From Propioniciclava tarda (lineage in GTDB: Bacteria; Actinomycetota; Actinomycetes; Propionibacteriales; Propionibacteriaceae): a stretch of 64,000 nt of DNA. The position numbers and the translations under genes are program-made. Below the pieces are notes generated by a model. The model had not been told where the DNA came from. It searched no databases and was given only the letters and a program-made list of their open reading frames with translations. The stretch lies in contig NZ_FXTL01000006.1 of the NCBI RefSeq assembly GCF_900182665.1, positions 1 through 64,000 on the forward strand, written 5' to 3'. Shown piece after piece: positions 13,495 through 43,241 of the stretch (the first letter of the stretch is position 1; each line of letters opens with the position of its first letter).

Positions 13495-13497
13495 CAG

Positions 13498-14409
13498 CTA
13501 GTCGGCACCGATTTCGTCGCGCGTCGGACCGTAAGCCCCCGCGTGGCCGACGGTGATCGCCGAGGTCGCGATCGCGCGCTTCAGGGCTGGCTCGACGTCC
13601 GTCCAGGACGCCTCGCGCAGCCGCGCGCGGGCCTCCGCGGACCCCAACAGCCCGAGGTCGGCCAGTCCCGAGATCAGTCCGGCCATGAACGAGTCCCCCG
13701 CGCCTACGGTGTCGACGACGGACGCCGCCCCGGGCGCCACCTCGTGCACGACGCCCTCGGACGCCAGCAGCGCGAGCGCCCCGTCCCCGCCCCGCGTGAC
13801 GACCACCAGTGCCGGACCCATCGCCGCCCAGCCGCGCGCCGCGTCGGCGTCCGACAGCTCGGGGTAGAGCCAGGCGAGGTCCTCGTCTGACGCCTTCACG
13901 ACGTCGGCGAGGGCCACCAGCTCGTGGACGCGGGGGAGCGCCTCGGCGGCCGTCCCGAGCAGGGCCGGACGCACGTTCGGGTCGTACGAGCGGGTACCGG
14001 ACGCCGCCCCGAGCGCCTCCACGATCTTGGTCCCGCCCGGCTCGAAGGCGGCCGAGATGCTGCCCGCATGCAGGTGGCCGTAGGCATCCAGGTCAGCGAT
14101 CACAGGCAGGTCGGACGCGAAGTCGAAGGTGTAGGTGGCCTTGCCTGCGGCGTCCACCTCGGCGAACGCGATCGGCGTCCGGTCAGCGCCGTCGCTGCCG
14201 GCCGCCAGCACGACGTCGGACGCCGCCGCGTAGTCGGCGATGCGGCGTCCGCGATCGTCGGGACCGATCCAGCAGGCGAGGGTGGAGTCGTGGCCGAGGC
14301 GTCCGAGACCGCAGGCGACGTTCAGCATGCTGCCGCCGACGTGCTCGACGGTGGTGTCGCCGGCGTGCACCACGTCAACGAGCGCTTCCCCGAGGCCCAA
14401 GATCTTCAT
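13498..14409 (-). CDS. PfkB-family carbohydrate kinase
   Basis: Protein of 303 residues. It has the ribokinase-type N-terminus (GLGEALVDV), the glycine-rich substrate region (VGGSMLNVACGLGRLG) and the PfkB signature DTVGAGDSFMAGLI with the catalytic Asp. Family members phosphorylate fructose, ribose, 2-keto-3-deoxygluconate or nucleosides. A fructokinase is plausible from overall likeness, but no sugar genes are adjacent. The ATG at 14409 with GGGGGAG seven bases upstream decides the start. Confidence 0.88.
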   Translation of the reverse strand: MKILGLGEALVDVVHAGDTTVEHVGGSMLNVACGLGRLGHDSTLACWIGPDDRGRRIADYAAASDVVLAAGSDGADRTPIAFAEVDAAGKATYTFDFASDLPVIADLDAYGHLHAGSISAAFEPGGTKIVEALGAASGTRSYDPNVRPALLGTAAEALPRVHELVALADVVKASDEDLAWLYPELSDADAARGWAAMGPALVVVTRGGDGALALLASEGVVHEVAPGAASVVDTVGAGDSFMAGLISGLADLGLLGSAEARARLREASWTDVEPALKRAIATSAITVGHAGAYGPTRDEIGAD

Positions 14410-14553
14410 GGCCGTCTCCCCCATGTCCGAGTGGATGTCGAGCGAACGCTATCCAATCCGTGCGGCCGAGCGACATGGATCCAGCCCTCGTCGGGGCGTC
14501 ATCGCCGGAGGCGTCCGGGCTCGTGAAAGGCTCGCCGACGAAAGGGGATGCGG

Positions 14554-15141
14554 ATGAGACGGGGAGCGGCGGTGGCCGGCGTGGTGGGGATCGTGCTGGC
14601 GGCGTCCGGCTGTGGGACGCCGTGGGTCGCGACGGGGTCGGCGGCATCGTCCCCGACGCCCACGTACGTCTGCACGCCGCTCGCCGGGGCGCCCGCGCCG
14701 TGCACCGCCGAGGAGTTCTCCAAGCTGCAGGCCCAGGCGCAGCTCGCGGTCGACGCACAGGACGTGTACGGCCGGTTCTTCGCCGAGTTCGTCGCTCAGC
14801 AGCGCAAGGGCGGCTCGACCACGACGAGCACGGCGCTCGGCGCGGTGACCGGCGGGCCCTACCTGGCGGCCCAGCAGGCCAACCTCGCGCGGCTGGCCAC
14901 CGACGGACTGAAGATCACGGGCGACGTCAAGCTGGTGAAGCTCGTGCCGGTCGCCGGCGGACCCTCCCACGGCTACGAGACCGCGCTGCTCGCCTGCATC
15001 GACGCCACCAAGGCCGAGGCCGTTAAAGGCGCGACGGTCGTCAGCCAGGGCAAGATGACGGCCGAGACGGCGTACTTCAAGCGCGACGCCGGCGTCCTCA
15101 AGATCTGGGACGCCGAGAAGGCCGATCCCGGACAGTGCTGA
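14554..15141 (+). CDS. Putative lipoprotein of unknown function
   Basis: Protein of 195 residues. A signal peptide (MRRGAAVAGVVGIVLAASGC) ends in a lipobox, so it is probably a membrane-anchored exported protein. The mature part has no recognised domain; it has several Cys residues and a C-terminal region rich in Val and Lys that looks like a small NTF2-like or secreted alpha/beta domain. The start is the ATG at 14554, six bases after AAAGGGG; the ATG at 14548 abuts the ribosome site. It is divergent from the PfkB kinase and convergent with another lipoprotein gene. Confidence 0.7.
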   Translation: MRRGAAVAGVVGIVLAASGCGTPWVATGSAASSPTPTYVCTPLAGAPAPCTAEEFSKLQAQAQLAVDAQDVYGRFFAEFVAQQRKGGSTTTSTALGAVTGGPYLAAQQANLARLATDGLKITGDVKLVKLVPVAGGPSHGYETALLACIDATKAEAVKGATVVSQGKMTAETAYFKRDAGVLKIWDAEKADPGQC

Positions 15142-15159
15142 GCCCGTCGGGCGGCGGGG

Positions 15160-15768
15160 TTACTCCTGGTACAGCTCGATGAGCACCAGCGGGCTGCCGG
15201 GCTTCGCGCTGAGGACCGCGACGGGGACGCCCCCCTCGTTCATCGGGACGTAGGCCGCAAAGTCCGTCGCTGACAAGGGCTGATAGGCATTCCCCGGGTC
15301 GACGAGGATGACCGAGCCGGCCGGCAGCGAGAGGTTCTCGAACGTGACGACGTCGTTGCGGTAGACGCCGTCCTCGGGCTTGCCGGACGTCACCCGCTCC
15401 ACCCGATCGATGCTGAGGGTGGCGCCGCCGTCGGCCGCCGGGGTGACGCCCATCACCAACGCGTAGTGGTCGACCTTCAATGCCCCGCCGTCCAGGGCGA
15501 CACCGGCGAGCTTGCGCCAGGCGTCCGGGTCGTCGGCAGCACCCGACAGCTTCGATCCGGCGGCCGAAGTCTGCTGGGTCGGCGTCGAGGCCGTGGGGGC
15601 TGACGCCGCGCTCGCGGCGCTGCTCGCCGCCGCCGTTGAGGCCGGCGGCGTGGGCGAACTCGCTGGCCCGGACGGCGTGCAGCCCGTCGCGAGCGTCAGG
15701 GAGGCCGCGGCCAGGGCGGCGGTCCTGGCCAGGCGCGGCGGGCGGACGCGGCCCGAAGAGTCAGTCAT
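15160..15768 (-). CDS. Putative lipoprotein of unknown function
   Basis: Protein of 202 residues. The signal peptide ends with LATGC (lipobox). A low-complexity Ala/Ser/Thr/Pro linker of about 50 residues follows, typical of surface lipoproteins that span the cell wall. The C-terminal part (about 90-202) is a predicted beta-rich domain without recognised motifs. The ATG at 15768 has GGAG five bases upstream. It sits just downstream of hspR but is separated by about 50 bases, so co-transcription from dnaK is possible but unproven. Confidence 0.7.
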   Translation of the reverse strand: MTDSSGRVRPPRLARTAALAAASLTLATGCTPSGPASSPTPPASTAAASSAASAASAPTASTPTQQTSAAGSKLSGAADDPDAWRKLAGVALDGGALKVDHYALVMGVTPAADGGATLSIDRVERVTSGKPEDGVYRNDVVTFENLSLPAGSVILVDPGNAYQPLSATDFAAYVPMNEGGVPVAVLSAKPGSPLVLIELYQE

Positions 15769-15819
15769 GAAGTTCTCCACGAGATCAGAGGGGACGCCGT
15801 CGGCTGCGGCGTCCGATGG

Positions 15820-16245
15820 TCACGCCCCGGTGGTCAGGGCCAGATTGCGCGACAGGGTCGCGTGCCGGCCCATCCGGACCTGCCCGGTCGGACCAGCCGT
15901 GAACGTCCGGACGCCGACGGGCACGTCCACTCGCTGCAGGAGCGCCAGCAACCGGGTGGCCTGGTCCTGCAGCTGCTCGACCTGCGCCTCCAGCGCCAGG
16001 ATCCGTCGGATGCCTTCGAGGTTGATCCCCTCACCCGACAGCGCCTGGATGTGCCGGAGGCGTCCGACGTCGCGCAGCGTGTAACGGCGACCGCGGCCCT
16101 TGGCCCGCGACGGCACCACCAGGCCCAGGCGGTCGTAGCCGCGCAGGGTCTGGGGGTGCATGTCGGCGAGCCGGGCCGCGGTCGTCACGGTGAACAGCGG
16201 CGCGTCCAGGTCGAACTGCTGGGGCAGGAAGGCGGCCACGGTCAC
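15820..16245 (-). CDS. hspR: Heat-shock repressor HspR (MerR family)
   Basis: Protein of 141 residues. The N-terminal MerR-type winged helix reads FTVTTAARLADMHPQTLRGY followed by DRLGLVVPSRAKGRGRRYT, the usual HspR sequence, and a coiled-coil C-terminal half (EAQVEQLQDQATRLLALL) follows. HspR binds HAIR operators and acts with DnaK as co-repressor. It is the last gene of the dnaK operon, its GTG overlapping the dnaJ stop by four bases. Likely targets in this window are its own operon and clpB. Confidence 0.95.
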   Translation of the reverse strand: MTVAAFLPQQFDLDAPLFTVTTAARLADMHPQTLRGYDRLGLVVPSRAKGRGRRYTLRDVGRLRHIQALSGEGINLEGIRRILALEAQVEQLQDQATRLLALLQRVDVPVGVRTFTAGPTGQVRMGRHATLSRNLALTTGA

Positions 16246-17390
16246 GCCTTCTCGAACAAGCCGACCCGCGGATCAGCCGCGGCGACGGCGTCCCGATAGG
16301 CCTCGAGCGCAGCCAAGGCGTCCGGCGACAGCGTCTTCGGCACCTGGACGTCGACGGTGACCAGCAGGTCGCCGTGCCCGTCCTTGCGCGGGACGCCCTT
16401 GCCGCGGACGCGCATCGTGCGCCCGTTGGGGGTGCCGGGCGCGAGTCGCATCCGAACCTTGGCGCCCGACAGCGTCGGCACCTCGATCTCGGCGCCGAGC
16501 GCGGCCTCGGTGAACAGCACCGGGACGGTCACCGTGAGGTTGTCGCCCTTGCGTCCGAACAGGTGATGCGGACGTACGTGCACGACGACGTAGAGATCAC
16601 CCGCGGGGCCACCGTTCTCGCCCGGCGCGCCCTTACCCTTGATGCGGATCTTCTGCCCGTCGGTCACGCCCGCCGGGATCCGCACCTGCATCGTCTTGGC
16701 CGACTTGCCGCGCCCCGACCCGTCACAGGCCGGGCACGGGTCGTCGACGACGATCCCGCGTCCGTGGCACTCGGGGCAGGGCTCCGAGCCGAACGGACCG
16801 TTCATGAGGACGCCCGAGCCCTGACAGGTCGGGCAGATGTGCGGGGTCGAGCCCGACCGCGCACCGGTGCCGTGGCAGACGGCACAAGGGGCGTCCGACA
16901 AGGTCGACAGGGACACCGTGGTGCCCTCGACGGCCTGGACGAAGTCGATCGTGGCTTCACCCTCGATGTCCTGGCCCCGCCGCGGACGCTTCTGCGTGGC
17001 GCGTCCGGCACCCTGGCCGAACAGCCCGCCGAACAGGTCACCGATGTCGGTGCTGCCGCCCGTGGCGCCGCGGAAGAGATCCTCGACGTTGACCTGGCCC
17101 TGCCGGAACTGGCCCGGCTGCCCACCGGCACCCGGGAACCTGAAGCCCCCGCCACCGAACAGCGAGCGCTGCTCGTCGTACTCCTTGCGCTTGGTCGCGT
17201 CCGAGAGCACCGAGTTCGCCTCGGACGCCTCCTTGAAGCGCGCCTCGGCCTTGGCGTCCCCGGGGTGCTGGTCGGGGTGATTCTGGCGGGCGATCTTGCG
17301 GAACGCCTTCTTGATCTCCTCGGGCTTGGCGTCCTTGGCGACGCCGAGGATCTTGTAGTAGTCCTTTTCGAGCCAGTCTTTGGTGCTCAC
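16242..17390 (-). CDS. dnaJ: Co-chaperone DnaJ (Hsp40)
   Basis: Protein of 382 residues. It has a J-domain with HPD about residues 38-40, a Gly/Phe-rich linker, and four CxxCxGxG-type zinc motifs (CAVCHGTG, CPTCQGSG, CPECHGRG, CPACDGSG), followed by two C-terminal substrate-binding domains. It stimulates DnaK ATPase and delivers clients. The GTG start at 17390 has AAAGGAGG four bases upstream. It is the third gene of dnaK-grpE-dnaJ-hspR. Confidence 0.97.
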   Translation of the reverse strand: MSTKDWLEKDYYKILGVAKDAKPEEIKKAFRKIARQNHPDQHPGDAKAEARFKEASEANSVLSDATKRKEYDEQRSLFGGGGFRFPGAGGQPGQFRQGQVNVEDLFRGATGGSTDIGDLFGGLFGQGAGRATQKRPRRGQDIEGEATIDFVQAVEGTTVSLSTLSDAPCAVCHGTGARSGSTPHICPTCQGSGVLMNGPFGSEPCPECHGRGIVVDDPCPACDGSGRGKSAKTMQVRIPAGVTDGQKIRIKGKGAPGENGGPAGDLYVVVHVRPHHLFGRKGDNLTVTVPVLFTEAALGAEIEVPTLSGAKVRMRLAPGTPNGRTMRVRGKGVPRKDGHGDLLVTVDVQVPKTLSPDALAALEAYRDAVAAADPRVGLFEKA

Positions 17391-17414
17391 GGCGCCTCCT
17401 TTCCTCGTCCGCCG

Positions 17415-18091
17415 CTACTCAGGATCGGCCACGCCGACGCGCGCTGGCCTGATGATCCGGTCGCCGAGTTTGACGCCCTTCTGCATGACCCCGCTGATGA
17501 CGACCACGTCGTGCTCGCCGTCGTAGGGCATGTGCATCAGCGCCTCGTGCAGGGTCGGATCGAACGCCTCGCCCAGCTCGCCGTAGGTGACGAGTCCGTA
17601 CTTGGCGCCGACCTTCTCGAGCTCGTCCGCGACCAGCTTGAAGCCGCCCACCAGCTCGCCGTGCTCGCGCGCTGCCTCGATCGAGTCGAGGACCGGCAGC
17701 AGGTCCAGCACGACCGCCTCGACCCCGGCCGCCCGCGCCAGCGCGCGGTCGCGGTCGACGCGACGCTTGTAGTTCGCGTACTCGGCCTGAAGGCGCTGCA
17801 GGTCGCCGGTCCGCTCGTTCGCCAGCTCTTCGAGCTCGGCGATCTTCGCACCGTAGATCGGGTCGGACGCCGCGGCGTCCGCTTGCTCGGTGCCGGGGAC
17901 GAGCGGCGCCTCGGGGCCGTCGCCGACGGCCTGACCGTCGGCCACGAACTCGTTGTCAGCCATGGGGCTCTCCTGTTGGTCGGCCCCGCCGGCCGCGACG
18001 GTCGGGCGGGGCTCAAAGGTGTCTGGGTCGATCCTGCGCTTGTCCCGGATCACCGGACGCCCCGAGGCGTCCGGCGATCCGGTGCGGTCGA

Positions 18092-18095
<4 letters not shown>
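17415..18095 (-). CDS. grpE: Nucleotide exchange factor GrpE
   Basis: Protein of 226 residues. A disordered N-terminus precedes a long coiled coil (about 80-140) and a C-terminal beta domain with [14 protein letters not shown] and [15 protein letters not shown], the GrpE signature. It releases ADP from DnaK. The GTG at 18095 overlaps the dnaK stop (GTGA). This start is preferred over the ATG at 17963 (which has AGGAG) because residues 17-30 ([14 protein letters not shown]) match the conserved N-terminus of actinobacterial GrpE proteins. Both starts might be used. Confidence 0.95.
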
Positions 18096-19942
<1,847 letters not shown>

Positions 19943-19987
19943 GGTGTGTTACCTCCAGTAAGAGTTCTGCTGAACACTCGTTCGGGA

Positions 19988-20008
19988 CTTGAGCCTAGCA
20001 GGCTCAAC
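19988..20008. promoter_or_regulatory. HAIR-like operator 1 of dnaK
   Basis: CTTGAGC-N7-GCTCAAC, a near match to the HspR consensus. Its centre is 27 bases from that of operator 2, so HspR dimers could bind side by side, about 45-90 bases upstream of the dnaK start. Confidence 0.75.
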
Positions 20009-20014
20009 TCAAGG

Positions 20015-20035
20015 GTTGAGTTCACCAGACTCAAC
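20015..20035. promoter_or_regulatory. HAIR operator 2 of dnaK
   Basis: GTTGAGT-N7-ACTCAAC, identical in all 21 bases to the clpB operator at 3775-3795. The rest of the gap up to 20235 holds no convincing gene or structure. Confidence 0.88.
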
Positions 20036-20235
20036 CTTGGACGCCGCCGCGCTATTCCGCGATGGAGGGCCCTTCTTGCGGCCGGGTTGGCCAACTGCGC
20101 ACCCCGACGCCATGAGCGGCAGATCTAGCGTGAACGCAGCGGCAGCACGAGCGCGAGGGCCCGGCAGAACTAGCGCGCGCACCCCTTGCTCACTCGCGAC
20201 GGGCCACTCTGAAGGCGTCCCCACTGCACCCGTCT

Positions 20236-21000
20236 TCAGCGCAGCGCCGGGATCAGCGCCTGCAGTCCGTCGATCACCATCGCCACCGCGATGGCAGCGA
20301 TGATCATGCCCATCAGGCGGGTCATGATGCCGCGGAGGGTCTGCGACATCCGGTTGCCGATCGCTGGCGCGAACCACAGCACCACGAACAGGATCGCCAG
20401 CACGATCAGCAGCGCGGCCACGATCGCGGTCACGCCCGGGACGTCCTTGGCCTGACCGGTGAAGACGATCAGCGCCGTGATCGTTCCCGGACCCAGCAGC
20501 ATCGGAAAGGTGAGCGGATAGAAGGACACGTCGCCGACGGCGTCCGAGGTTCGATCGGACGCCGACCCGGGCGTCCGCTCGAGATCGATGCCCGCGCTCG
20601 GGTGGGCGGCCTTCGCCCGCATGCGAGCCTTCTCGTGCGGCGTCCCGTCGTGGGCGTCGCTTCCGCCGTTGAGCATTCCCAGGCCGATCATGCCCAGGAC
20701 CAGACCGCCGGCGACCCTGAAGTGGTTCACCGAGATGCCGAAGAACGACAGAATCGCGGTGCCACTCAGCATGATCACGACCGCCATGATCAGGCTGTAC
20801 AGCGCAACGCGTACGGCCGTTGCCCGTTGTCGCCGCAGATCATCGCCGCTCGTCAGCGTGAGGAACATGGGCAGCGACACGAACGGGTTCATGATCGCGA
20901 AGAAGCCGCCGAGGGCTTTGACGAAGAGTGCGACATCCACGCCAGCATCCTGGCACTCGGGGTTCGTTGGCGCCGGACGCTGGGTGAGCTCGTCGTTCAT
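20236..21000 (-). CDS. MarC-family integral membrane protein
   Basis: Protein of 254 residues with six predicted membrane segments and the MarC/UPF0056 motifs: FFAIMNPFVSLPMFL early, GTAILSFFGIS with an RVAGGLVLGMIGLGML segment in the middle, and FPLLLGPGTI-like PLTFPMLLGPGTITA later. A hydrophilic loop of about 55 residues (NGGSDAHDG onwards) is typical of the family. Function is unknown despite the name. The ATG at 21000 has only a distant AGAAGGGG; a GTG at 20940, just before the first helix, is an alternative start. Confidence 0.85.
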   Translation of the reverse strand: MNDELTQRPAPTNPECQDAGVDVALFVKALGGFFAIMNPFVSLPMFLTLTSGDDLRRQRATAVRVALYSLIMAVVIMLSGTAILSFFGISVNHFRVAGGLVLGMIGLGMLNGGSDAHDGTPHEKARMRAKAAHPSAGIDLERTPGSASDRTSDAVGDVSFYPLTFPMLLGPGTITALIVFTGQAKDVPGVTAIVAALLIVLAILFVVLWFAPAIGNRMSQTLRGIMTRLMGMIIAAIAVAMVIDGLQALIPALR

Positions 21001-21075
21001 GGCGACGGTCGACCCCTTCTGGGCGGCCAACCGCAGCCAAGACGCCTGCAGCACGGAGGGCCAACGGCGACGCGT

Positions 21076-22674
21076 TCAGTCGGTGACGGACGCGTCCGGC
21101 GGCAGGAGGTGGAGCGCGCGCGGGTCGCGGACGGCGAAGGCGAACGCGGCGTCCTCGATGGCCTGGTCGTCGGCGGTGAGGCGTCCGTCGTGCTGGCGCC
21201 GATGGACCTCCCAGGTCGGCACCTGGAACAGCTCCATGAAGCGGTCCGGCGCCTCGCCGACGCGGTAGAGCTCCCAGCGAGTGGCGCCGCTGCGCAGGCG
21301 CGAGAGGCGCAGGGCGTCCATGGCGACGAGGAACTCGGCCTCGTCCTTGGGGTCGATCTCGATCTCGAGCGTGACCAGCACCGGACCGGCCTGGGGGTCG
21401 GGCTCTGACTCGAACGCCGGCTCGCTCCAATACGCGACCGGCGAGCGGTCGGGGTAGACCCGCTCGGGGAAGGGGAAGAAGTACGAGCCCGCGGCGCTGG
21501 CCGCGACCAGGGCGGCCGCGGCCAGGACAGCCTCGGTCAGCCCGATCCACTGCGTCGCCAGTCCCCAGACCGGGGACGCCAGCGCGAGAGTCCCGAGGAA
21601 CGCCATCAGGTAGACCGCGATCGCGCGGGCGCGCACCCAGCCGGGGACGAGCAGCTGCAACTCGGAGACGACGACCGAGACGGTGGCGGTCCAGCCGAGG
21701 CCGCACACCATCAGCGGGATCAGCGCCACCCACAGCGTGTGCGCGAACGCCAACGCCCCTAGTGAGGCCGCGAACGCGAGCGCCGCCAGGATCAGCGACT
21801 GGTTGGCGGTGAACCGCTCGCGGACGCGTCCGATGATCAACGCGCCGCCCAGCGCGCCGAGCCCGAGGGCGGCGAACAGGACGCCGTAGCCGGCGGCGCC
21901 CAGGCCGAGCTGGCGGCTCGCGATCAGCGGCAGCAACGCCCAGACCGCGGCGGCGGGTCCGACGAAGGACGACAGACGCACCAGCAGGCGGCGGATCATC
22001 GGGTCGTGCCGGACGTAGCGTCCGCCAGCCAGGAGCGCCGGGAAGAACCGCTCGGGGTCGGAGCGTCGAACCCTCGGACGCCGCCACGCGATCAGCACGG
22101 CACCCAGGAACAGTCCACACACGGCGTTCAGCGCGAACACCACCGGGACACCCCACGCGGCGATCAGCGCCCCCGCGATCGCAGGCCCGGCCGCGCGCGC
22201 CACGTTGACGCTGATCATGTCGAGCCTGGTCGCGGCCGGGATATGCGTCCGGGGCACCAGTTCGGTGATCATCGCCTGCCAGGTCGGCGACAACATCGCC
22301 GTTCCGACGCCCACGGCGAAGGTGAACGCGAGCATCAGGGCGGGCGGCATGAGCCCGATCGCGGTGAGGACCGTCAGCAGGATCGCCACCGTCACGAAGT
22401 AGATCTGGACGCCGATCATCAGCCAGCGCCGGTCGAACGAGTCGGCCAGGACGCCAGCGGGCAGCGCCAGAAGCATCATCGGCAGCGTGCTCGCGGTCTG
22501 CACGAGCGTGACGATCGTGGCCGCGTTCGGGTCGTTGACGAACAGCCACTGCGCGCCCACGGTCTGCGCCCACGCGCCGAGGCTCGCGACGATCATCCCC
22601 AGCCACAGCCAGAAGAAGGCGCGCCGCTTGAGCGGCGCCCACATCGACACCCGCTCGGCCGGTTGGTCACTCAC
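21076..22674 (-). CDS. MFS exporter (EntS-like) with C-terminal antibiotic-monooxygenase-like domain
   Basis: Protein of 532 residues. Twelve membrane segments (about 15-415) follow the MFS_3/EntS pattern, with LPAGVLADSFDRRW as the A-motif. The soluble C-terminal tail (about 435-520) resembles a dimeric alpha/beta barrel (ABM/DUF3291-like) domain: VLVTLEIEIDPKDEAEFL then GATRWELYRVGEAPDRFMELF. This fusion is known in actinobacteria and proteobacteria; its purpose is unclear. The GTG at 22674 follows AGGAGG by nine bases. Confidence 0.85.
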   Translation of the reverse strand: MSDQPAERVSMWAPLKRRAFFWLWLGMIVASLGAWAQTVGAQWLFVNDPNAATIVTLVQTASTLPMMLLALPAGVLADSFDRRWLMIGVQIYFVTVAILLTVLTAIGLMPPALMLAFTFAVGVGTAMLSPTWQAMITELVPRTHIPAATRLDMISVNVARAAGPAIAGALIAAWGVPVVFALNAVCGLFLGAVLIAWRRPRVRRSDPERFFPALLAGGRYVRHDPMIRRLLVRLSSFVGPAAAVWALLPLIASRQLGLGAAGYGVLFAALGLGALGGALIIGRVRERFTANQSLILAALAFAASLGALAFAHTLWVALIPLMVCGLGWTATVSVVVSELQLLVPGWVRARAIAVYLMAFLGTLALASPVWGLATQWIGLTEAVLAAAALVAASAAGSYFFPFPERVYPDRSPVAYWSEPAFESEPDPQAGPVLVTLEIEIDPKDEAEFLVAMDALRLSRLRSGATRWELYRVGEAPDRFMELFQVPTWEVHRRQHDGRLTADDQAIEDAAFAFAVRDPRALHLLPPDASVTD

Positions 22675-22834
22675 CCACGGCCCCCTCCTGTTCTGTTCGG
22701 ACGCCGATGCTGCGCGTCGGCGTCTAGCGTCGTCGAGAACGCCGTGCGACTGTCCGGTTTGACCGGCGGACCGGTGGCCCTCGTCAGGGTGGTGGACGAA
22801 CAGTCGTGGCACTGAACCCGAATAGGGTGGTCCG

Positions 22835-22912
22835 GTGATCTTCTCGTCCCGGCTCTCTGCTGCGGGTTCAGCTCCGGAACAGCGCCCTGCCGATCGGGCG
22901 TCCTGCCGATGA
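22835..22912 (+). CDS. Leaderless 25-codon leader ORF before the TRIC gene
   Basis: The GTG at 22835 lies six bases after TAGGGT (22823-22828). The ORF encodes 25 residues, includes one Cys and is Ser/Ala/Arg-rich. It ends in TGA at 22910-22912, overlapping the ATG of the next gene (ATGA), the standard mark of translational coupling. No ribosome site is seen for the downstream gene, which supports real translation of this leader. Confidence 0.55.
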   Translation: MIFSSRLSAAGSAPEQRPADRASCR

Positions 22913-23637: not shown

Positions 23638-23662
23638 GAGCCCGGACGCCCGCGCGTTGGTC

Positions 23663-23729: not shown

Positions 23730-23743
23730 CCGCTCTGCGCACG

Positions 23744-34665: not shown

Positions 34666-34685
34666 GCAGCGACCTGAACGACGAC

Positions 34686-34715
34686 GAGGGCCCCGGGAGT
34701 GATCCCGGGGCCCTC
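34686..34715. terminator. Bidirectional terminator after the GH13 gene
   Basis: A perfect 13-bp stem, GAGGGCCCCGGGA with TCCCGGGGCCCTC, closes a GTGA tetraloop. It lies between the convergent GH13 and HbhA-like genes. Confidence 0.85.
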
Positions 34716-34737
34716 TCGCTTAGCTACTGCGCGCGAG

Positions 34738-35325: not shown

Positions 35326-35345
35326 GGGTTCTCCTTCTCTGCCGG

Positions 35346-35762
35346 TCAGCCGGCGTGGGTGGGCTCGGGGTTACCGCCCTGGATCGGACCAGGGGCGGCG
35401 AGGAAGGCGGCGTACACGTCGAGCAGGGCGTGCTTCTGCGCGTCGGTCAGCCGCGGGTCGTTGCGGATCGCGCCCTGCACCGACGTCGGACGCGCCTCGT
35501 CGGTCGGGTCGATGCCCGCGTAGGAATAGAGGGTGCCTGCGGAGACTTGCAGCGCCGTCGCCAGCGACTGCAGCACCTCGGCCGATGGACGCCGCAGGCC
35601 GCGTTCGATCTGGCTCACGTAGGGATTGGAGATGCCGGCCCGCTCGGCGAGCTGGCGTAGCGACAGCTCCGCGGCGCGCCGCTGGGTGGCGATGAAGTCG
35701 CCGAGGCTCGCCGGACGCGCGTCCGTCTCCTTGGTCGACTCCCAGTCCTGCATGCGCACCAT
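35346..35762 (-). CDS. XRE-family transcriptional regulator
   Basis: Protein of 138 residues. An N-terminal helix-turn-helix of XRE/Cro type (LRQLAERAGISNPYVSQIERGLRRPS) occupies about residues 25-90, followed by a short C-terminal region ending in DPRLTDAQKHALLDVYAAF. It resembles mycobacterial Rv0474, which also precedes hbhA. ATG codons at 35762 and 35753 are both possible starts. It probably controls itself and the adjacent genes: repeated CTAGC motifs lie upstream (35764-35783 and 35842-35855). Confidence 0.82.
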   Translation of the reverse strand: MVRMQDWESTKETDARPASLGDFIATQRRAAELSLRQLAERAGISNPYVSQIERGLRRPSAEVLQSLATALQVSAGTLYSYAGIDPTDEARPTSVQGAIRNDPRLTDAQKHALLDVYAAFLAAPGPIQGGNPEPTHAG

Positions 35763-35763
35763 G

Positions 35764-35855
35764 CTGCTAGCTGGAGTTAGCAGATTCAAGGGCACGGCAT
35801 CCGCCTGGACCCTGAGGCGTCCCTGACGCCGACCGCCGGACGCTAGCGGGCTAGC
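35764..35855. promoter_or_regulatory. Candidate operators for the XRE regulator
   Basis: Site 1 reads CTGCTA-N8-TAGCAG (35764-35783), just upstream of the XRE gene. Site 2 reads GCTAGC-GG-GCTAGC (35842-35855), just upstream of the -10 box of the divergent phzF pseudogene. Both share the TAGC half-site, which suggests binding by one regulator. Confidence 0.45.
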
Positions 35856-35871
35856 AGCTTAGGCTCGTCTC

Positions 35872-36445
35872 ATGCGCCGCTTCACCCACCTGGAGTCTTC
35901 GCGTCCGGACCCTGCTCCGGCAACCCGCTGGCCGTCGTCCTGGACGCCGAGGGCCTGACCGACGTCCAACTCCAGGCCTTCGCGCACTGGACGCTGCTGT
36001 CGGAAACGACCTTCCTGCTGCCCCCGACCCGCCCGGACGCCGACTATCGGGTTCGGATCTTCACGACGTCGGAGGAACTGCCGTTTGCGGGGCACCCCAC
36101 CCTGGGGTCGGCCCATGCCTGGCTGGAGGCGGGCGGCGCGCCGCGGCGTCCGGGCGTCGTCGTCCAGGAGTGTGGGGCCGGCCTGATCCAGGTGAAGGGC
36201 GCCGACGGCGTCCTGTGGTCCGGGCCTTCGTCGCAGGGTCACCCGCCGAAGACCCGGTCACCGGCTCGCTCAACGCAGCGGTCGCCGCTTGGCAGCGGGC
36301 CAAAGGCGCCGCGCCGGCGTCCTCTCAGGTGAAACAGGGCATGCAGCTGGGCTCGGACGGGCTGATCCACGTCCGGGACGACGCCGACGGACTGTGGATC
36401 GGCGGGGCCGTCCGGACGATGGTCCGCGGCACCGTCGAGCTCTGA
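35872..36445 (+). pseudogene. Broken PhzF-family isomerase/epimerase gene
   Basis: The N-terminal start MRRFTHL is followed at about 35893 by a one-base loss; the next frame reads VFASGPCSGNPLAVVLDAE, then the active-site SETTFL and FAGHPTLGSAHAW. At about 36215 the frame changes again and jumps to AFVAGSPAEDPVTGS and the C-terminal end. The middle of the protein, about 80-100 residues in normal PhzF proteins, is missing. An intact leaderless promoter (TAGGCT, six bases, ATG) remains, so inactivation looks recent. PhzF proteins are usually about 280 residues. Confidence 0.82.
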
Positions 36446-36572
36446 GCCCGCTCCGGCGGACGTCCGCACTGGGCCGGGAGACCCACGCCGCGGACGGGCG
36501 TTGAGCGGCTGCGGGGCGCCGTGTGGTGAACGGAAGTGGCGATTGGACGCCGACCTTGCGACGATGTGCGGC

Positions 36573-38561
36573 ATGAGCCACACCGCGGGGCCGTCCTCGC
36601 CTGAGCCCGACAGCTCCACCACCCCGGATCCGTTGACGGACCCACCGCGACCCGCGGTCCCCGCGGAGCCTCAGGACACCAAGCACGGCCCGGCTACCGG
36701 TCTGGCGCTCGCCGCACTCGGCGTCGTTTTCGGCGACATCGGCACCTCGCCGCTGTACTCGCTGCAGACCGTCTTCAGCATCAACCACAACACCGTCGCC
36801 GCCACGCGCGAAGACGTCTTCGGCGTCATCTCGATGGTGTTCTGGACGCTCATGATCATCGTCACCTTCAAGTACGCGATGCTCGTCATGAGGGCCGATA
36901 ACGACGGCGAAGGCGGCATCTTGTCGCTCGTCGCACTGCTGCGGCTCAAGCTCGGCGGCAACACCAAGTTCGTCGGAATCGCCACCATCCTGGGCATCAT
37001 CGGCGCCTCCCTCTTCTACGGCGACTCGGTGATCACTCCAGCGATCACCGTGATGTCGTCGATCGAGGGCCTGAAGGTCGTCAATGAGGGCTTCGCCGCC
37101 TGGGTGCTGCCCGCCTCTCTGGTGATCTTGTCGGCGCTGTTCGCGGTGCAACGCAAGGGCACGGCAGCGGTCGGCAAGTTCTTCGGACCCATCATGGCCC
37201 TGTGGTTCTTGGCCCTCGCGGCCGCAGGCCTACCGTGGGTGTTGGCCAACCCCGAGATCTTGGGCGCTCTCTCGCCCCACCACGCCTTGTTGTTCGTGGT
37301 CCGGACGCCGTGGGTCGCGTTCATCGCCTTGGGCGCCGTCGTCCTGGTCATCACCGGCACCGAGGCGCTGTACGCCGACATGGGCCATTTCGGCCGTGGC
37401 CCCATCCTGCTGGCGTGGTTCATCCTCGTGTTGCCCTGCCTCACCGTGTGCTACATGGGCATGGGAGCCATGATCCTGCTGCACCCCGACTACGTCGACA
37501 ATCCGTTCTTCAGGCTCGCGCCTGACTGGGCGAAGGTGCCGATGGTCGTCCTGGCGACCATGGCGTCCGTCATCGCCTCGCAGGCCGTGATCTCGGGCGC
37601 GTACTCCGTGTCCCGCCAGGCCACCCGACTCGGACTGCTGCCCCGGCTCAACGTCAAGCACACCTCCAAGGAAGAGGGCGGGCAGATCTACATCGGCTCC
37701 ATCAACTGGATCCTGTTCTTCGGCGTCGTCACGCTCGTCGCGGTCTTCCAGAGTTCGGAGCACCTCGCCGCCGCGTACGGCTTGGCCGTCACCGGCACCC
37801 TGCTGCTGGAGTCGTTCCTGTTCCTCTGCCTGGCTGCGTGGGTCTGGAAGGTCGGGCCACTGAAGATCGCGGTCGCGGTCTGCACCTTCGTGGCGCTCGA
37901 GGTGGTCTTCTTCGCCGGCAACGTGACGAAGATCGTCAGCGGCGGCTGGCTTCCGCTCCTCATCGCCGCCATCGTCATCACGATCATGACGACCTGGATG
38001 AAGGGGAACGCGAACGTCAAAGCAGAGCGGGCCGGCATCGAGGGTCACCTCGACGAGTTCATCGCGGACCTGCACCAGCGGAAAATTCCCCGCGTTCCCG
38101 GTCTCGCCGTCTTCCCGCACCCGGACCGGCAGACGACACCGCTCGCGCTGCGCCAGCTGGTCGACTTCACCCACGTCCTGCACGACCAGGTGGCGATCGT
38201 CAGCATCATCAACGAGAACGTGCCGCACATCCGGCACGTTGATCGGGCGTCCGTTCACGACCTCGGGTACACCGACGACGGCATTGTCCACGTGTCGTAC
38301 CGGGTCGGCTTCAACGACTCCCAGGACGTCCCGAAGGCGCTGCTGTGGGCCCAGGGCAAGTGCCCGGAGATGGATCTCGATCCGGATGAGGCGCGCTACT
38401 TCCTGTCGTCGCTGCGACTGGACGCCGCGGACGTCCCGACGCTGCGGACCTGGCGCAAGCAGCTGTTCTTGACGTTGGCGTCCGCCGCCGCGAACCGCAC
38501 GTCGGTCTTCCACCTCCCGCCGGAGCGGACGGTCGTCATGGGAGCCCAGCTGCGCTACTAG
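36573..38561 (+). CDS. kup: Potassium uptake protein Kup
   Basis: Protein of 662 residues. After a Pro/Ser-rich tail of about 45 residues come twelve membrane segments with Kup signatures GVVFGDIGTSPLY, DNDGEGGI and GASLFYGDSVITPAI, then a cytoplasmic C-terminal domain of about 190 residues. It is a secondary K+ importer. The ATG at 36573 is the most plausible start by family alignment; no strong ribosome site is visible. The leader (36446-36572) has no riboswitch I could recognise. Confidence 0.95.
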   Translation: MSHTAGPSSPEPDSSTTPDPLTDPPRPAVPAEPQDTKHGPATGLALAALGVVFGDIGTSPLYSLQTVFSINHNTVAATREDVFGVISMVFWTLMIIVTFKYAMLVMRADNDGEGGILSLVALLRLKLGGNTKFVGIATILGIIGASLFYGDSVITPAITVMSSIEGLKVVNEGFAAWVLPASLVILSALFAVQRKGTAAVGKFFGPIMALWFLALAAAGLPWVLANPEILGALSPHHALLFVVRTPWVAFIALGAVVLVITGTEALYADMGHFGRGPILLAWFILVLPCLTVCYMGMGAMILLHPDYVDNPFFRLAPDWAKVPMVVLATMASVIASQAVISGAYSVSRQATRLGLLPRLNVKHTSKEEGGQIYIGSINWILFFGVVTLVAVFQSSEHLAAAYGLAVTGTLLLESFLFLCLAAWVWKVGPLKIAVAVCTFVALEVVFFAGNVTKIVSGGWLPLLIAAIVITIMTTWMKGNANVKAERAGIEGHLDEFIADLHQRKIPRVPGLAVFPHPDRQTTPLALRQLVDFTHVLHDQVAIVSIINENVPHIRHVDRASVHDLGYTDDGIVHVSYRVGFNDSQDVPKALLWAQGKCPEMDLDPDEARYFLSSLRLDAADVPTLRTWRKQLFLTLASAAANRTSVFHLPPERTVVMGAQLRY

Positions 38562-38570
38562 GGTGCGATC

Positions 38571-38613
38571 GGGGAGGGTTGACGCCGACGGGCGGCCGCC
38601 CTCCCCTTTCGTT
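38571..38613 (+). terminator. Intrinsic terminator after kup
   Basis: GGGGAGGG (38571-38578) pairs with CCCTCCCC (38599-38606) around a GC-rich loop, followed by TTTCGTTT. It lies ten bases after the kup stop and before msrA. Confidence 0.75.
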
Positions 38614-38655
38614 TCAGCGCCGCCTACCCTGGGCAGGGAACCTTCAGGAGGCTTC

Positions 38656-39279
38656 ATGGGACTGTTCGCCAAGACGACCCTGGTCGACCCGCGGGTCGCC
38701 CTGCCCGGACGCGAGGCGTCCATTCTCGGGCCGTGCCAGCACCTGGTGTTCGGGGTGGACGTCCATGACACGCCGCCCGGTTCGGAGGTCGCCTACTTCG
38801 CGCTGGGCTGCTTCTGGGGCGAGGAAAAGCTGTTCTGGTCGATGCCGGGCGTGACCAACACGGCCGTCGGCTACATGGGCGGCATCACGCCCAACCCGAC
38901 CTACGAGGAGGTCTGCTCGGGACGGACCAACCACACCGAGACGGTCCGAGCCTGCTTCGACCCGACCATCGTCAGCTACGAGGCGCTCGTACGGCACTTC
39001 TTCGAGGCGCACGACCCCACGCAGGGCATGCGTCAGGGCAACGACGTCGGCACCCAGTACCGCTCGGCGCTGTTCGTGTCGGACGCCCAACGGAGCGTCG
39101 CCGAGGGCGTCCGGGATCAGTTCGCGGAAGCCTACGCGCGGGCCGGATACGGGGCGATCACGACCGAGATCACGGACGCGGGTCCGTTCTACTTCGCCGA
39201 GGGCTACCACCAGCAGTACCTCATCAAGAACCCGGGGGGCTACTGCCCGATCCATGCCACCGGGGTGTGCTTGGCGTGA
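38656..39279 (+). CDS. msrA: Peptide methionine sulfoxide reductase MsrA
   Basis: Protein of 207 residues with the catalytic motif GCFWG (Cys 52), NTAVGYMGG, a conserved YEEVCSGRTNHTE and a C-terminal EGYHQQYL followed by GGYCP with a likely resolving Cys. It reduces the S-form of methionine sulfoxide in proteins. The ATG follows AGGAGG by four bases. The roughly 40-residue N-terminal extension is usual in the longer MsrA class. Confidence 0.95.
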   Translation: MGLFAKTTLVDPRVALPGREASILGPCQHLVFGVDVHDTPPGSEVAYFALGCFWGEEKLFWSMPGVTNTAVGYMGGITPNPTYEEVCSGRTNHTETVRACFDPTIVSYEALVRHFFEAHDPTQGMRQGNDVGTQYRSALFVSDAQRSVAEGVRDQFAEAYARAGYGAITTEITDAGPFYFAEGYHQQYLIKNPGGYCPIHATGVCLA

Positions 39280-39319
39280 ACGCTCGCTGCGGCCGAGGCT
39301 TGCGTCCTCGCTGTCCACG

Positions 39320-39655
39320 ATGAGTGCGTCGTACGAGGCTGCCATCAGCGAGATTGCTGGGTCCTTCACCGACCATGCACCGATATTGAGGTCGCCCGAC
39401 GGATGGTTCGGACGCCCCATGGACAACTGTCACCGCTTGACCTCCGTCACCGTACGGGACGACGGCCTCGCGATCGGCTTGGACAACCTCCAGACCCTGA
39501 CCATCCGTGGCCCCTTCCGGGTGGTCCGGGCGGGCAAGGAGCTCGCCATGACGGGCTTCTCTACGGCGGTCTTCGGGTGGCGCGCAGATGGATCGCGGGC
39601 CCCTCAGCCCACGAAGAGCTACACCTCGGGGACCATCGACTTCGTCAGCCTCTGA
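39320..39655 (+). CDS. Hypothetical protein
   Basis: Protein of 111 residues, not recognised. It has no signal peptide or membrane segment; the middle shows beta-strand-rich alternation (LTSVTVRDDGLAIGLDN, LTIRGPFRVVRAG). It may begin at the ATG at 39320, 40 bases after msrA, without an obvious ribosome site. Reality as a gene is judged mainly from composition and frame length. Confidence 0.5.
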   Translation: MSASYEAAISEIAGSFTDHAPILRSPDGWFGRPMDNCHRLTSVTVRDDGLAIGLDNLQTLTIRGPFRVVRAGKELAMTGFSTAVFGWRADGSRAPQPTKSYTSGTIDFVSL

Positions 39656-39768
39656 GCGAGAGGTCCGGCACGGCCCCGAGCGGCACCGGACCCTCCGCCC
39701 GAGCCCGTGGCGACGTCGCTGGCGATCGCCTCGCCATGAACCAACCGATTCGCTCTCCCAGGACGACC

Positions 39769-40044
39769 ATGACCAACGCCCTTGCTCCCGGCTTCCTCGC
39801 ACCCACCCCGACCCAGGCACCGCCGTGGCGGCGCGGGAGCTGGCCGGTCTGGATCGCCGCCGTCATATGGGTGCTGCTGTTCGTTCGCGACGTGCCGAGC
39901 CTTGTTCAGGGCCTGCTGGGCGAGCAGCCGCTGCTCAGCACGGGCGCCGTCACGCTGCTCGGGCTGGTGCTGCTCTTCCTCGCCGCGCTGGCCGTCGCCG
40001 CCCTGGCCCCCGGACGCCTGACCGCCGGCCACCTCGGACTCTGA
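39769..40044 (+). CDS. Small membrane protein
   Basis: Protein of 91 residues with two hydrophobic segments (about 27-40 and 55-80) and a Pro-rich N-terminus. The ATG at 39769 follows AGGA by five bases; an in-frame ATG at 39736 is an alternative. It is not a known family that I recognise. A modest hairpin (40123-40156, TGCACGAC/GTCGTGCA) lies between it and the convergent CDF gene. Confidence 0.55.
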   Translation: MTNALAPGFLAPTPTQAPPWRRGSWPVWIAAVIWVLLFVRDVPSLVQGLLGEQPLLSTGAVTLLGLVLLFLAALAVAALAPGRLTAGHLGL

Positions 40045-40186
40045 CGAGGCGTCCACACAAGGTTGGCACCCTGGTGCTGCCTGCTCGACGTGCGGTTCCC
40101 GTTGGGGGACCGTCAGAGGCCTTGCACGACAAGATCGCCGGCACCGTCGTCGTGCAGGTGCCGCGGCGCCGCTGAGGCGTCCGACC

Positions 40187-41116
40187 TCAGTCGTGGTGGG
40201 CCGGGTCAAAGGCATCGAAGCCCGGCGTTTCCAGTTCGATCGTCGAGTGTGCGATCTCGAAGTGCGCCGAGATGCACTCCTTGAGCGCCCGCAGGATCTC
40301 GGGCGCGTGCCCGTCGTTGAAGCACTCGTCCGCCACCACGACGTGCGCCGACAGCACCGGTAGCCCGGACGCCACGGTCGACGCGTGGAGCTCGTGGACG
40401 CCCTGCACGTGCTCGACCTCGAGGATGTGGCGACGTACCTCGTCCAGGTCCAGCCCGGTCGGGGTGAACTCCATCAGCACGGACGCCGTCTCGCGCAGCA
40501 GCATGACCGCCCGGGGCACGATGAGGGCCACGATGGCGAGCCCGGCGACGGCGTCCGCCGCCTGCCAGCCGGTCAGTGAGATCACGACGGCGGCCGCGAT
40601 GACGCCGACCGAGCCGAGCGCGTCGCTCGCCGCCTCCAGGAAGGCGGCTCTCATGTTGAACGTGGACGCCCGCTGGGAGGCCAGCACGGCCACGGAGATC
40701 AGATTGCCGACCAGCCCGATCACGCCGAACGCCAACAGCTCGGCCCCCGGAACCTTCGGCGGATCGGACAGCCGGTGCAGCGCTTCGACGGCCGCGAACA
40801 CCCCGACGGCCAGCAGAATGCCGGCTTGGGCCTGCGCGGCGAGCACCTCGATGCGGCGGAAGCCCCAGGTGCGCCGGGCCGATGACGGACGCAACATCAG
40901 GTGCGACGCCACGAAGGCGACAGCGAGCCCCAGCACGTCGGTGAGCATGTGGGCGGTGTCGGTGAGCAGGGCCAGCGAGCCGGTCCACACGGCCCCGACG
41001 AGCTGCGCCACCAGGATCGCGCCGGTGATCCCGAGCGCCACGCCGATGCGGCGACGCTGGTCCGGGGCCGCGGTGGCATGCGAGTGCCCGTGACCGTGAT
41101 CGTGACCGTGCCCCAC
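40187..41116 (-). CDS. Cation diffusion facilitator (CDF) metal exporter
   Basis: Protein of 309 residues. A His-rich N-terminus (GHGHDHGHGHSHA) precedes six membrane segments with metal-site motifs LTDTAHMLTDV (segment 2) and EAASDALGS (segment 5), and a C-terminal cytoplasmic domain with conserved VHELHA and LSAHVVV. It exports Zn(II) or a similar divalent ion by proton antiport. The GTG at 41116 lies six bases after TACGGT (leaderless). The start codons of this gene and the divergent S9 peptidase are only 91 bases apart. Confidence 0.92.
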   Translation of the reverse strand: MGHGHDHGHGHSHATAAPDQRRRIGVALGITGAILVAQLVGAVWTGSLALLTDTAHMLTDVLGLAVAFVASHLMLRPSSARRTWGFRRIEVLAAQAQAGILLAVGVFAAVEALHRLSDPPKVPGAELLAFGVIGLVGNLISVAVLASQRASTFNMRAAFLEAASDALGSVGVIAAAVVISLTGWQAADAVAGLAIVALIVPRAVMLLRETASVLMEFTPTGLDLDEVRRHILEVEHVQGVHELHASTVASGLPVLSAHVVVADECFNDGHAPEILRALKECISAHFEIAHSTIELETPGFDAFDPAHHD

Positions 41117-41207
41117 GTCGACACCGTAGCCGCCGGAGTGGACAACTGAAGAGCCCCAACGCCCTCGCGCGGGGCCCCAAGAGCGTCGATCTGGCTACTG
41201 TCGATCC

Positions 41208-43241
41208 ATGCGTCCCGACCATCTGCCGCTGCTGCCGTCCGTCTCCGCCCCGCAGGTCCACCCCGACGGCACCTGGGCCGTCGTGGCCGCGTCCTACCCC
41301 AGCCTGGATGCCGACGCGTACGTCGGCCAGCTGTGGCGCATCGACCTGCGGGGCGCCGAGCCGCCCCGCCGCCTCACCAGAGGCAAGGCGGACGCCGCCC
41401 CGCAGTTCTCCCCGGGCGGCTCTCTCATCGGTTTCCTGCGCGCCCCCGCCGACGGACGCCCCCAAGTGCACGTCATCCCTGCGGCCGGCGGCGAACCCGT
41501 CCAAGCCACGGACGCCAAGCTGGGCGTCGGCGAGTTCACCTTCGCGCCCGACGAACGTCTGCTCGCCTTCACGGCCCGGACGCCCGAAGAGGGCCGCTAC
41601 GGCACCCTCGATGGGGTCGGCGCCTCCGCCGAGGACGCGCGCCGCATCACGACCCTGCAGTTCCAGTCCAACGGCCTGGGCTGGACCAACGACCGCCGCC
41701 GCCAGCTGTTCGTGACCGAGGTGCCGGACCCCTACGGCGAGCCGTTCGTCGAGCCCAAGGGCCGGGCGGCGAAGGCCCTGGCCGACGCCAAGCTGGCGGC
41801 CGCGGCGTCCGATCTCGACAAGCCGGTCGACGTGCCGGGGGCGGTACGTCCGGCGACGCAGCTCACCCGCGGCGACTTCGACCACAGTGACCCGACGTTC
41901 GTCCCGGACGGCACCCTGCTCGCCGCCTCGTCCCGCCACGACGAGCGCGACCTGGACCTCCTCACCGAGGTCTTCGCCTTCGCCCTGACCCCGGACGCCG
42001 ACCCGCGCCCGATCGCCCCGGGGCTGAACGCCTACGAAGCGTGCGGTGCCGCGGACGGCGCCACCATGTTCCTGATCGGCGCCGACCTGGGCGACACCAA
42101 CCGCGACTTCGTCGGACGCCTCGGTGGCGTCTTCGCCCTGGACGCCTCGGGCGAGCCCCGGCGGCTCACCGACGCCCAGACCGTGCAGGTCGAGCACGGG
42201 CTGACGCCCTTCGGACGCGACGGCGTCCTGACCATCGTCAACGAGCGGGGGACGACGCGTCCGCTGACGGTCCGCGCGGACGGCACCGTCGCAACGTGGC
42301 CGACGGGCGAGGCGTCCGTGCTGGGCGCCGCCGAGATCCCCGGCGACCCCACCCGCATCGTCGTCACCGTCACCACCCCCGACTCCCCGCCCGAGGTCGG
42401 CATCCTGGACGCCTCCGGCGCGCTGACCGTGCTGACCGACTTCTCCGGACGCCTCCGCGCGGCCTCGCCCGGGGTGCGTCCGATCGAGCTCACGGCCACG
42501 GCGTCCGACGGCTACCCGGTCCACGGGTGGGCCTACGTCCCTGCGGGGGATGGCCCGCACCCCGTCCTGCTCAACATCCACGGCGGACCGCACTCCACCT
42601 ACGGTCCCACGTTCTTCGACGAGTTCCAGGTGTACGCCGAGGCCGGCTACGCCGTCGTCGCCTGCAATCCGCGCGGCTCGGGCGGCTACGGCGAGCACCA
42701 CGGACGCGTCATCAAGGACGCCATGGGCGACCTGGACGCCTCCGACATCCTGAGCTTCCTCGACCACGCGCTGGCGAGCGTCCCGGGGTTGGACGCCTCG
42801 CGCGTCGGCGTCCAGGGCGGCAGCTACGGCGGCTACATGACGGCGTGGCTGATCGGCCACACCGACCGCTTCGCCGCCGCGATCGTCGAGCGGGGCTTCC
42901 TCGACACCGAGAGCTTCATCGGCCACTCCGACATCGGCTGGTTCTTCGTCGAGGAGTACAACGGCACGGACGCCGCCCATCGCGTCACGCAGTCGCCGAT
43001 GTCGTTCGCGTCGGAGGTGCGGACGCCGACGCTGGTGATCCACTCCGAGGACGACCTGCGCTGCCCGCTCGGACCCGCCCTGCGCTACTACACGACGCTG
43101 AAGCTCAACAAGGTGGACGCCGAACTGCTGGTCTTCCCGGGCGAAAACCACGAGCTGTCGCGCTCCGGGACGCCGCACCACCGCAAGCAGCGGTTCGACG
43201 CCATCCTCGACTGGTGGGGACGGCACCTGCCGCTCGCCTGA
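41208..43241 (+). CDS. S9-family serine peptidase (acylaminoacyl/dipeptidyl-peptidase-like)
   Basis: Protein of 677 residues. An N-terminal seven-bladed beta-propeller (about 1-420) is followed by an alpha/beta-hydrolase domain with NIHGGPHSTYG, catalytic Ser in GGSYGGYMT (about 541), Asp in HSEDDLRCP (about 615) and His in ENHELSRSG (about 647). It cleaves short peptides in the cytoplasm. The ATG at 41208 lies six bases after TACTGT (leaderless). This gene is very rich in the GGACGC word (27 copies in 2.03 kb). Confidence 0.93.
   Translation: MRPDHLPLLPSVSAPQVHPDGTWAVVAASYPSLDADAYVGQLWRIDLRGAEPPRRLTRGKADAAPQFSPGGSLIGFLRAPADGRPQVHVIPAAGGEPVQATDAKLGVGEFTFAPDERLLAFTARTPEEGRYGTLDGVGASAEDARRITTLQFQSNGLGWTNDRRRQLFVTEVPDPYGEPFVEPKGRAAKALADAKLAAAASDLDKPVDVPGAVRPATQLTRGDFDHSDPTFVPDGTLLAASSRHDERDLDLLTEVFAFALTPDADPRPIAPGLNAYEACGAADGATMFLIGADLGDTNRDFVGRLGGVFALDASGEPRRLTDAQTVQVEHGLTPFGRDGVLTIVNERGTTRPLTVRADGTVATWPTGEASVLGAAEIPGDPTRIVVTVTTPDSPPEVGILDASGALTVLTDFSGRLRAASPGVRPIELTATASDGYPVHGWAYVPAGDGPHPVLLNIHGGPHSTYGPTFFDEFQVYAEAGYAVVACNPRGSGGYGEHHGRVIKDAMGDLDASDILSFLDHALASVPGLDASRVGVQGGSYGGYMTAWLIGHTDRFAAAIVERGFLDTESFIGHSDIGWFFVEEYNGTDAAHRVTQSPMSFASEVRTPTLVIHSEDDLRCPLGPALRYYTTLKLNKVDAELLVFPGENHELSRSGTPHHRKQRFDAILDWWGRHLPLA

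Follow-up and report, generated by a model that had tools for sequence, protein, structure and literature searches.

The 64-kb window analysed here, a stretch of the Propioniciclava tarda genome numbered from 1 to 64,000, is filled with copies of the short word GGACGC and its complement GCGTCC, which together are the most numerous of all 6-mers in it (449 copies, on average 7.0 per kb). Two parts of the window hold about twice this mean, at about 14 copies per kb each, namely the stretch 13501-14640 and a gene at 41208-43241. This gene had been named an S9-type peptidase in a first-pass annotation of the same DNA, and its top NCBIfam match, under that model's cut-off, is Dpp5-like. The first-pass counts were reproduced for the first stretch (16 hexamers) and for the 12 copies in the gene of the longer form CGGACGCC, with complement GGCGTCCG; the 27 hexamers reported for the gene became 29 on recounting. 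The interval 13501-43241, given as the bounds of the feature, is not special, containing 226 of the window's 449 hexamers; these bounds are arbitrary, since the word fills the genome.

Genome-wide excess of the word

In the whole genome, which comprises 40 contigs and 2,974,143 bases, there are 7320 copies of CGGACGCC (3513 + 3807), against 426 (202 + 224) of a control word made of the same letters read backwards. These 7320 octamers alone cover about 2% of the 2.97 Mb. Statistical tests were performed on 464 kb, comprising the window and 20 stretches of 20 kb, or 16% of the genome. In this sample the hexamer has a density of 6.64 per kb, the heptamer GGACGCC 4.54 and the octamer 2.48. GGACGC was observed 3080 times, compared with 854, 1367 and 1995 copies predicted by Markov models of second, third and fourth order, and CGGACGCC was observed 1151 times, compared with 119, 222 and 495; models of higher order contain the word's own 6- and 7-mers and hence predict it (1190 octamers at sixth order). 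Among the permutations of its letters the word ranked first at each length (60 for the 6-mer, 140 for the 7-mer and 280 for the 8-mer). The first-pass annotation had proposed that a third-order model predicting the same count, or equal enrichment of permuted words, would speak against the word; the model in fact predicts fewer than half of the hexamers, and no permuted word exceeds it.

In 406 predicted genes, the hexamer was found 2732 times against 1103 ± 28 after shuffling of synonymous codons, the heptamer 1859 times against 535 ± 21 and the octamer 1001 times against 210 ± 13. The hexamer is raised over the shuffle in each of the six frames, by 1.6- to 7.9-fold, and its density between genes (5.4 per kb) is close to that in coding DNA (6.8 per kb). 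The S9-type gene taken alone exceeds all of 2000 synonymous shuffles (13.0 ± 2.5 hexamers, maximum 21). The six-frame, intergenic and strand counts thus agree with the earlier description of a word present in both orientations, in coding and intergenic DNA and in several frames, and bear out the view that codon preference explains it poorly. The excess is confirmed as real and genome-wide.

Shape, strand and spacing of the word

The word is the non-palindromic nGGACGCC, with a strict core GGACGC, a strongly preferred final C and G disfavoured ahead of the core. Single-letter variants of GGACGC within CGGACGCC reach 0.4-1.9 of a first-order model, compared with 9.7 for the word itself. Other letters in place of the final C give 1.8-2.1 of the same model, and the letter preceding the core weighs less, G being the least favoured there. 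In five word-less genomes of the family the heptamer occurs at 0.67 per kb, against 4.54 per kb in the own genome, and the sum of its 21 one-letter neighbours is 10.01 per kb there and 11.29 per kb here. Relative to these word-less genomes, forms ending in a letter other than C are more frequent (GGACGCG 3.4 times), and certain replacements of the inner C and G are less so, at 0.5-0.6. The excess is therefore not due to the draining of one neighbour through one type of mutation.

The octamer occurs about 2.5 times and the heptamer about 4.5 times per kb, equally on the two strands. A strand skew, which the first-pass annotation had suggested looking for, was not seen in 23 stretches of 20 kb, in which forward and reverse copies are about equal (skew -0.14 to 0.13); word skew is unrelated to GC skew in these stretches (rho -0.02), indicating no replication orientation bias, and its relation to gene strand is rho 0.35 (p 0.10). 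Polarity of the kind shown by Chi or by segregation words was rejected on the equal strand counts and the lack of relation to GC skew. Even spacing was also rejected, since the gaps spread wider than exponential (coefficient of variation 1.33). The own genome also contains a defence-type island with few copies of the word, which would be expected if the island arrived recently. A second DnaK gene, at 87-88% identity to that of the own genome, is present on contig 38 of genome G004 (locus L233) and on contig 19 of G002. In G004 the word has a density of 0.21 per kb around this gene, compared with 3.50 per kb at the other copy; the word-poor DNA there is either a recent arrival or stray assembly sequence. 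(Comparison genomes and genera are cited by number, as G004 or g17.)

Copies lying close together are preferentially inverted. Within 22 bp the 464 kb hold 133 inverted and 31 direct pairs, compared with an expectation of about 76 for either type (p 3e-16); at 23 to 80 bp the numbers are 339 and 349. All 133 inverted pairs are different sequences, and no single spacing dominates. At 9-17 bp the order GGACGCC-GGCGTCC prevails over the other by 53 to 13, and examples of both orders are given in Table 1. Six control words lacked such an inverted preference; of the genome's commonest 7-mers, CGTCCGC alone matches the ratio (13 to 2), and it overlaps the word. In other genomes the inverted and direct pairs number 19 vs 15 in the genus relatives, 10 vs 6 in genus g17 and, for the hexamer, 30 vs 15 in g9. 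Terminators were rejected as the origin of the pairs, which are not concentrated between genes: of those within 20 bp, 104 of 118 are coding, the same share as for all words (1858 of 2107). Extended hairpins were rejected as well, the flanks of close inverted pairs being no more complementary than those of distant ones.

Table 1. Positions of the word and of features discussed in the text (window coordinates)
Feature	Position	Strand	Content
Whole window	1..64000	both	449 GGACGC/GCGTCC, 300 GGACGCC/GGCGTCC, 176 CGGACGCC/GGCGTCCG
First stretch	13501..14640		16 hexamers (9 GGACGC + 7 GCGTCC), 10 octamers
Octamer starts in the first stretch	13719, 13758, 13846, 13998, 14174, 14217, 14244, 14298, 14510, 14601
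Head-to-head pair, example of close inverted pairs	29064..29077		GGACGCCGGCGTCC
S9-type peptidase gene	41208..43241	+	29 hexamers (19 GGACGC + 10 GCGTCC) in all six frames, 12 octamers
Octamer starts in the S9-type gene	41389, 41453, 41509, 41577, 41804, 41992, 42113, 42311, 42446, 42500, 42967, 43020
Pair in the other inverted order	51471..51484		GGCGTCCGGACGCC
Longest stretch of the window without GGACGCC/GGCGTCC	57897..59873		2.0 kb, G+C 0.646

Distribution and dialects in Propionibacteriaceae

All 13 genomes examined of the window's genus, which include Nigerium massiliense (G003), are enriched in CGGACGCC over the reversed control; the lowest ratio is 3.2, in G002 (1681 copies in 3.0 Mb), and the highest, in the own genome, is 17. 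Among 147 genomes of the family, genus g25, several members of g17 and part of g9 are clearly enriched too, and most of the others are near the control or up to about twice as high. The comparison with related genera proposed in the first-pass annotation thus finds the word enriched in the own genus and in genomes of three others. Across the class, 393 genomes were compared, including four from this family, and in all those from other families the density is at most about 0.6 per kb, compared with 2.46 per kb in the own genome. Octamer counts in the family extend from background levels up to about 7300, and a one-letter dialect separates genera.

The dialects were identified by a synonymous-shuffle test on 25 samples, some of them pooled and mostly 100 kb in length, with a few of 20-60 kb; 24 samples remained, as G024 yielded no genes in the simple codon-based gene caller. 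Since other words have z values of 6-8 here, and in G016 values as high as 12, only larger excesses were counted. GGACGCC is in clear excess in the own genome, G003-G005, G028 and G081/G094 of g17, and a Propionibacteriaceae bin of g9 (G125) prefers GGACG followed by C or G. A second form, GTACGCC, stands out in G016 (GGTACGCC 95 vs 7.9 in the shuffle), G025 (62 vs 9.1) and G021 (GGCGTAC 138 vs 42) and is weaker in G069 (75 vs 30). The excess takes the form of the palindrome CGTACG in G033 (171 vs 47), of CCGTACG in G034 (73 vs 26) and of CGGACGA in G047, an Aestuariimicrobium (105 vs 40). In G016, G025 and G021, GTACGCC lies above the shuffle in all six frames and has a like density between genes. 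It ranks first of 420 permutations in G025 and G021 and sixth in G016; CGTACG is fifth of 102 in G033.

Whole-genome counts over the 147 family genomes gave 3442 copies of GGTACGCC in G016 (control 132), 3243 in G025 (175), 2740 in G065 (106), 1915 in G079 (326) and 1819 in G021 (139), compared with 159 in the own genome (180). No genome of the 147 is strongly rich in both words, the nearest being G144, with 740 (control 130) and 600 (control 260). Other genera of the family thus have GTACGCC in place of GGACGCC. The two words have GGACGC and GTACGC as their strict cores, with the common part G[G/T]ACGC. The identity of ClpB to that of the own genome is 78-80% in the other GGACGCC genera, 75-77% in GTACGCC and CGTACG genera and 76-79% in word-less ones, values compatible with dialects that follow descent.

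The history of individual copies was followed in alignments of about 60 kb with 11 genus relatives at 73-83% identity, which cover partly the same loci, so that the counts below are not independent. Single-letter differences at own words fall at all seven positions and comprise 35 transversions and 8 transitions among 43, and in the reverse direction 14 transversions and 9 transitions among 23; Vsr-type repair of deaminated cytosine is not favoured by this preponderance of transversions. Own words that differ in a relative do so silently in 37 of 169 cases, against 1011 of 2951 for pooled permuted words (113 of 139 after filtering), a result by which an origin at silent sites was rejected. An amino-acid change accompanies 132 of the 169 missing own words, compared with 1940 of 2951 permuted ones, suggesting that the words gather in variable protein positions.

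The word also occurs in a group of tailed phages in IMG/VR (L271, L293 and L423-L448), recognised by genes for the major head protein, protease, portal and terminase. These contigs carry GGACGCC at 0.4-3.3 per kb, a biased density because they were found through 14-letter inverted pairs, which selects for the word. Four of 26 were tested and lie above 200 synonymous shuffles, with more copies on one strand, e.g. L424 with 26 copies in all against 10.4.

A possible recognition word and its alternatives

A word that is independent of codons, frame, strand and gene boundaries, that has a sharp core, and that is strong in some genera of Propionibacteriaceae and bears dialects points to a sequence-specific protein as its reader. 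The reading tentatively preferred here is a recognition word with lineage dialects, which would work in the manner of a DNA-uptake word. The specificity of its reader would have changed between genera, and the word would accumulate where proteins tolerate it, word-bearing DNA being preferentially kept. By analogy, it may be bound during natural transformation via a route of Tad pilus and ComEA-ComEC, would mark DNA of the own lineage and would spread by molecular drive, as is envisaged for the DNA uptake sequences (DUS) of Neisseriaceae. With slightly more reserve, it can be proposed that GGACGCC, GTACGCC and CGTACG label the own lineage for uptake or retention, are read by a Tad/Com protein and act as barriers to gene flow between the genera of Propionibacteriaceae. 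To our knowledge, a dialect system of this type would be without precedent outside Pasteurellaceae and Neisseriaceae.

The model for this reading is provided by Neisseriaceae, where, according to excerpts of PMC3630211, the DUS dialects share a core, follow phylogeny and govern which DNA is taken up, and where 5918 kingDUS occur in 2.4 Mb and some family members have none. The likeness lies in a word present in thousands of copies, in lineage dialects with a common core, in the usual limitation to one dialect per genome and in the existence of members without any; the density is comparable too, given the 7320 octamers in 2.97 Mb. Unlike in Neisseriaceae, the word belongs to a high-G+C Gram-positive family, its core has 6-7 letters instead of the ten of a DUS, and its close pairs are preferentially inverted. 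It would be a case of dialect words in its own right, apart from both the Neisseriaceae uptake words and HIP1. Searches of open-licence PMC papers brought up no title or abstract that describes the GGACGC word.

The own genome encodes candidate uptake machinery at locus L084, where a ComEA-type gene (SLBB and helix-hairpin-helix domains) is followed by comEC. ComEC matches over the cut-off were obtained in 43 of the 45 family genomes, whether or not these are rich in the word, with misses in G007 and G030, and TadE matches in all 45. The known DUS receptor is a ComP-like minor pilin. In another actinobacterium, Micrococcus luteus, transformation needs Tad pili, as stated in excerpts of PMC4322843. 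In G051, a genome moderately rich in GGTACGCC (848, control 216), the ComEC match is split into two partial ones with about 1.3 kb between them (contig 1, 3721636-3723718), and the gene may be interrupted.

Several observations weigh against an uptake word. The heptamer is denser, at 4.5 per kb, than the uptake of kb-sized fragments would need, its core is shorter than the 10-letter uptake words, and the inverted bias within 22 bp is not predicted by uptake. Genomes lacking the word have ComEC and TadE just as often, and G007, a word-rich genome of the own genus (2994 octamers), gave no ComEC match in an assembly of 330 contigs. G402, G463, G176 and G208, outside the family, reach 3.5-4.2 times the control, like the weakest members of the genus, in which the G001 sample is itself weak in the shuffle test (149 vs 95), and in Micropruina glycogenica (G050, genus g17) the leading word is not GGACGCC but CTCGAC (281 vs 122). 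In the alignments described above, 80 of 253 own words (32%) are shared with relatives, not clearly above permuted words (24% pooled; 26% for 11 controls, ranging to 52%); of the relatives' words, 80 of 168 (48%) are shared with the own genome, against 28% for the 11 controls, which reach up to 65%. Searches of open-licence papers yielded no transformation or uptake preference for Propionibacteriaceae.

An alternative is that the word is the binding site of an abundant intracellular protein, acting in the nucleoid, in replication priming, or in recombination or repair, and is maintained by selection or drive. A very high density regardless of genes would be natural for such a site, a preference for inverted copies within 22 bp would be compatible with a dimeric reader or a hairpin, and the prevalence of one order at 9-17 bp points the same way, as does the excess over codon shuffles in the four phage contigs tested. 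Intracellular binding may be the better fit for the inverted pairs. Polar words such as Chi are likewise short, over-represented and non-palindromic, but the word studied here has no strand bias and a larger excess; it thus lacks the orientation bias of such words, and no one spacing between paired copies stands out. The inverted preference is moreover not seen in the genus relatives and is not clear in g17. Binding by an intracellular protein is considered a possible but less likely account.

A mechanism like that proposed for HIP1 of cyanobacteria, whose origin is itself still a model in the excerpts of PMC4390886, is judged unlikely. In it, the word would be the target of a solitary DNA methyltransferase and would accumulate through methylation-directed mismatch repair or selection for methylated sites, the dialects being targets of other methyltransferases. 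HIP1 and the alternate HIPs of related genomes are short, dense, G+C-rich words, and the variants shift with the resident methyltransferase, so that dialects would be expected; GGACGCC contains GACGCC, an instance of the GRCGYC target discussed in the same excerpts, and the G033 form CGTACG is palindromic as HIPs are. The own word and GTACGCC are not, however, and the word occurs clearly more often than the once per kb which that model supposes. The first G is also needed, AGACGCC, CGACGCC and TGACGCC being at 0.8-1.0 of their level in word-less genomes. Methylases are patchy: N6/N4 methylases (PF01555) were found over the cut-off in 30 and C5 methylases (PF00145) in 31 of the 45 family genomes. 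Of the word-rich genomes, G003, G016 and G036 lack a PF00145 match and G025, G036 and G039 a PF01555 match, so that G036 has neither (other methylase families were not searched), and no one methylase of these two families serves all word-rich genomes. The single C5 match of the own genome lies in the word-poor island. The first-pass annotation had placed the word with HIP1 or DNA uptake sequences as a genome-wide type; genome counts, relatives, shuffles and permutations support that placement, as they do its doubts about codon preference, but with lineage dialects and no palindrome the likeness to HIP1 is less close than that to DNA uptake sequences. The contrast between word-rich, word-less and dialect genomes offers a natural experiment for finding the reader protein and for telling uptake, methylation and architecture apart.

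That the word results from base composition or from a preference for certain codons or codon pairs is highly improbable: other frequent words exceed their synonymous shuffles as well, usually with z of 6-8 and at most 14 (CTCGAC in G050), and a mild excess of CGGACGCC over the control is widespread in the class, but enrichment in all six frames and in intergenic DNA, the absence of like enrichment of permuted words, the share of GGA and CGT codons that sit in the word, and family genomes of similar G+C without the word rule out such a preference as the full explanation. The word itself shapes the use of these rare codons, as 425 of 1219 GGA codons (35%) and 197 of 866 CGT codons (23%) lie inside it. 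It also has a slight effect on some dipeptides. In the own genome AS (1.28 vs 0.96), DA (1.30 vs 1.01) and GR are mildly raised, with no rise of RP (1.10); in the genomes of the other dialects, YA shows no rise in G016 or G033 and reaches 1.48 in G025 and 1.35 in G021.

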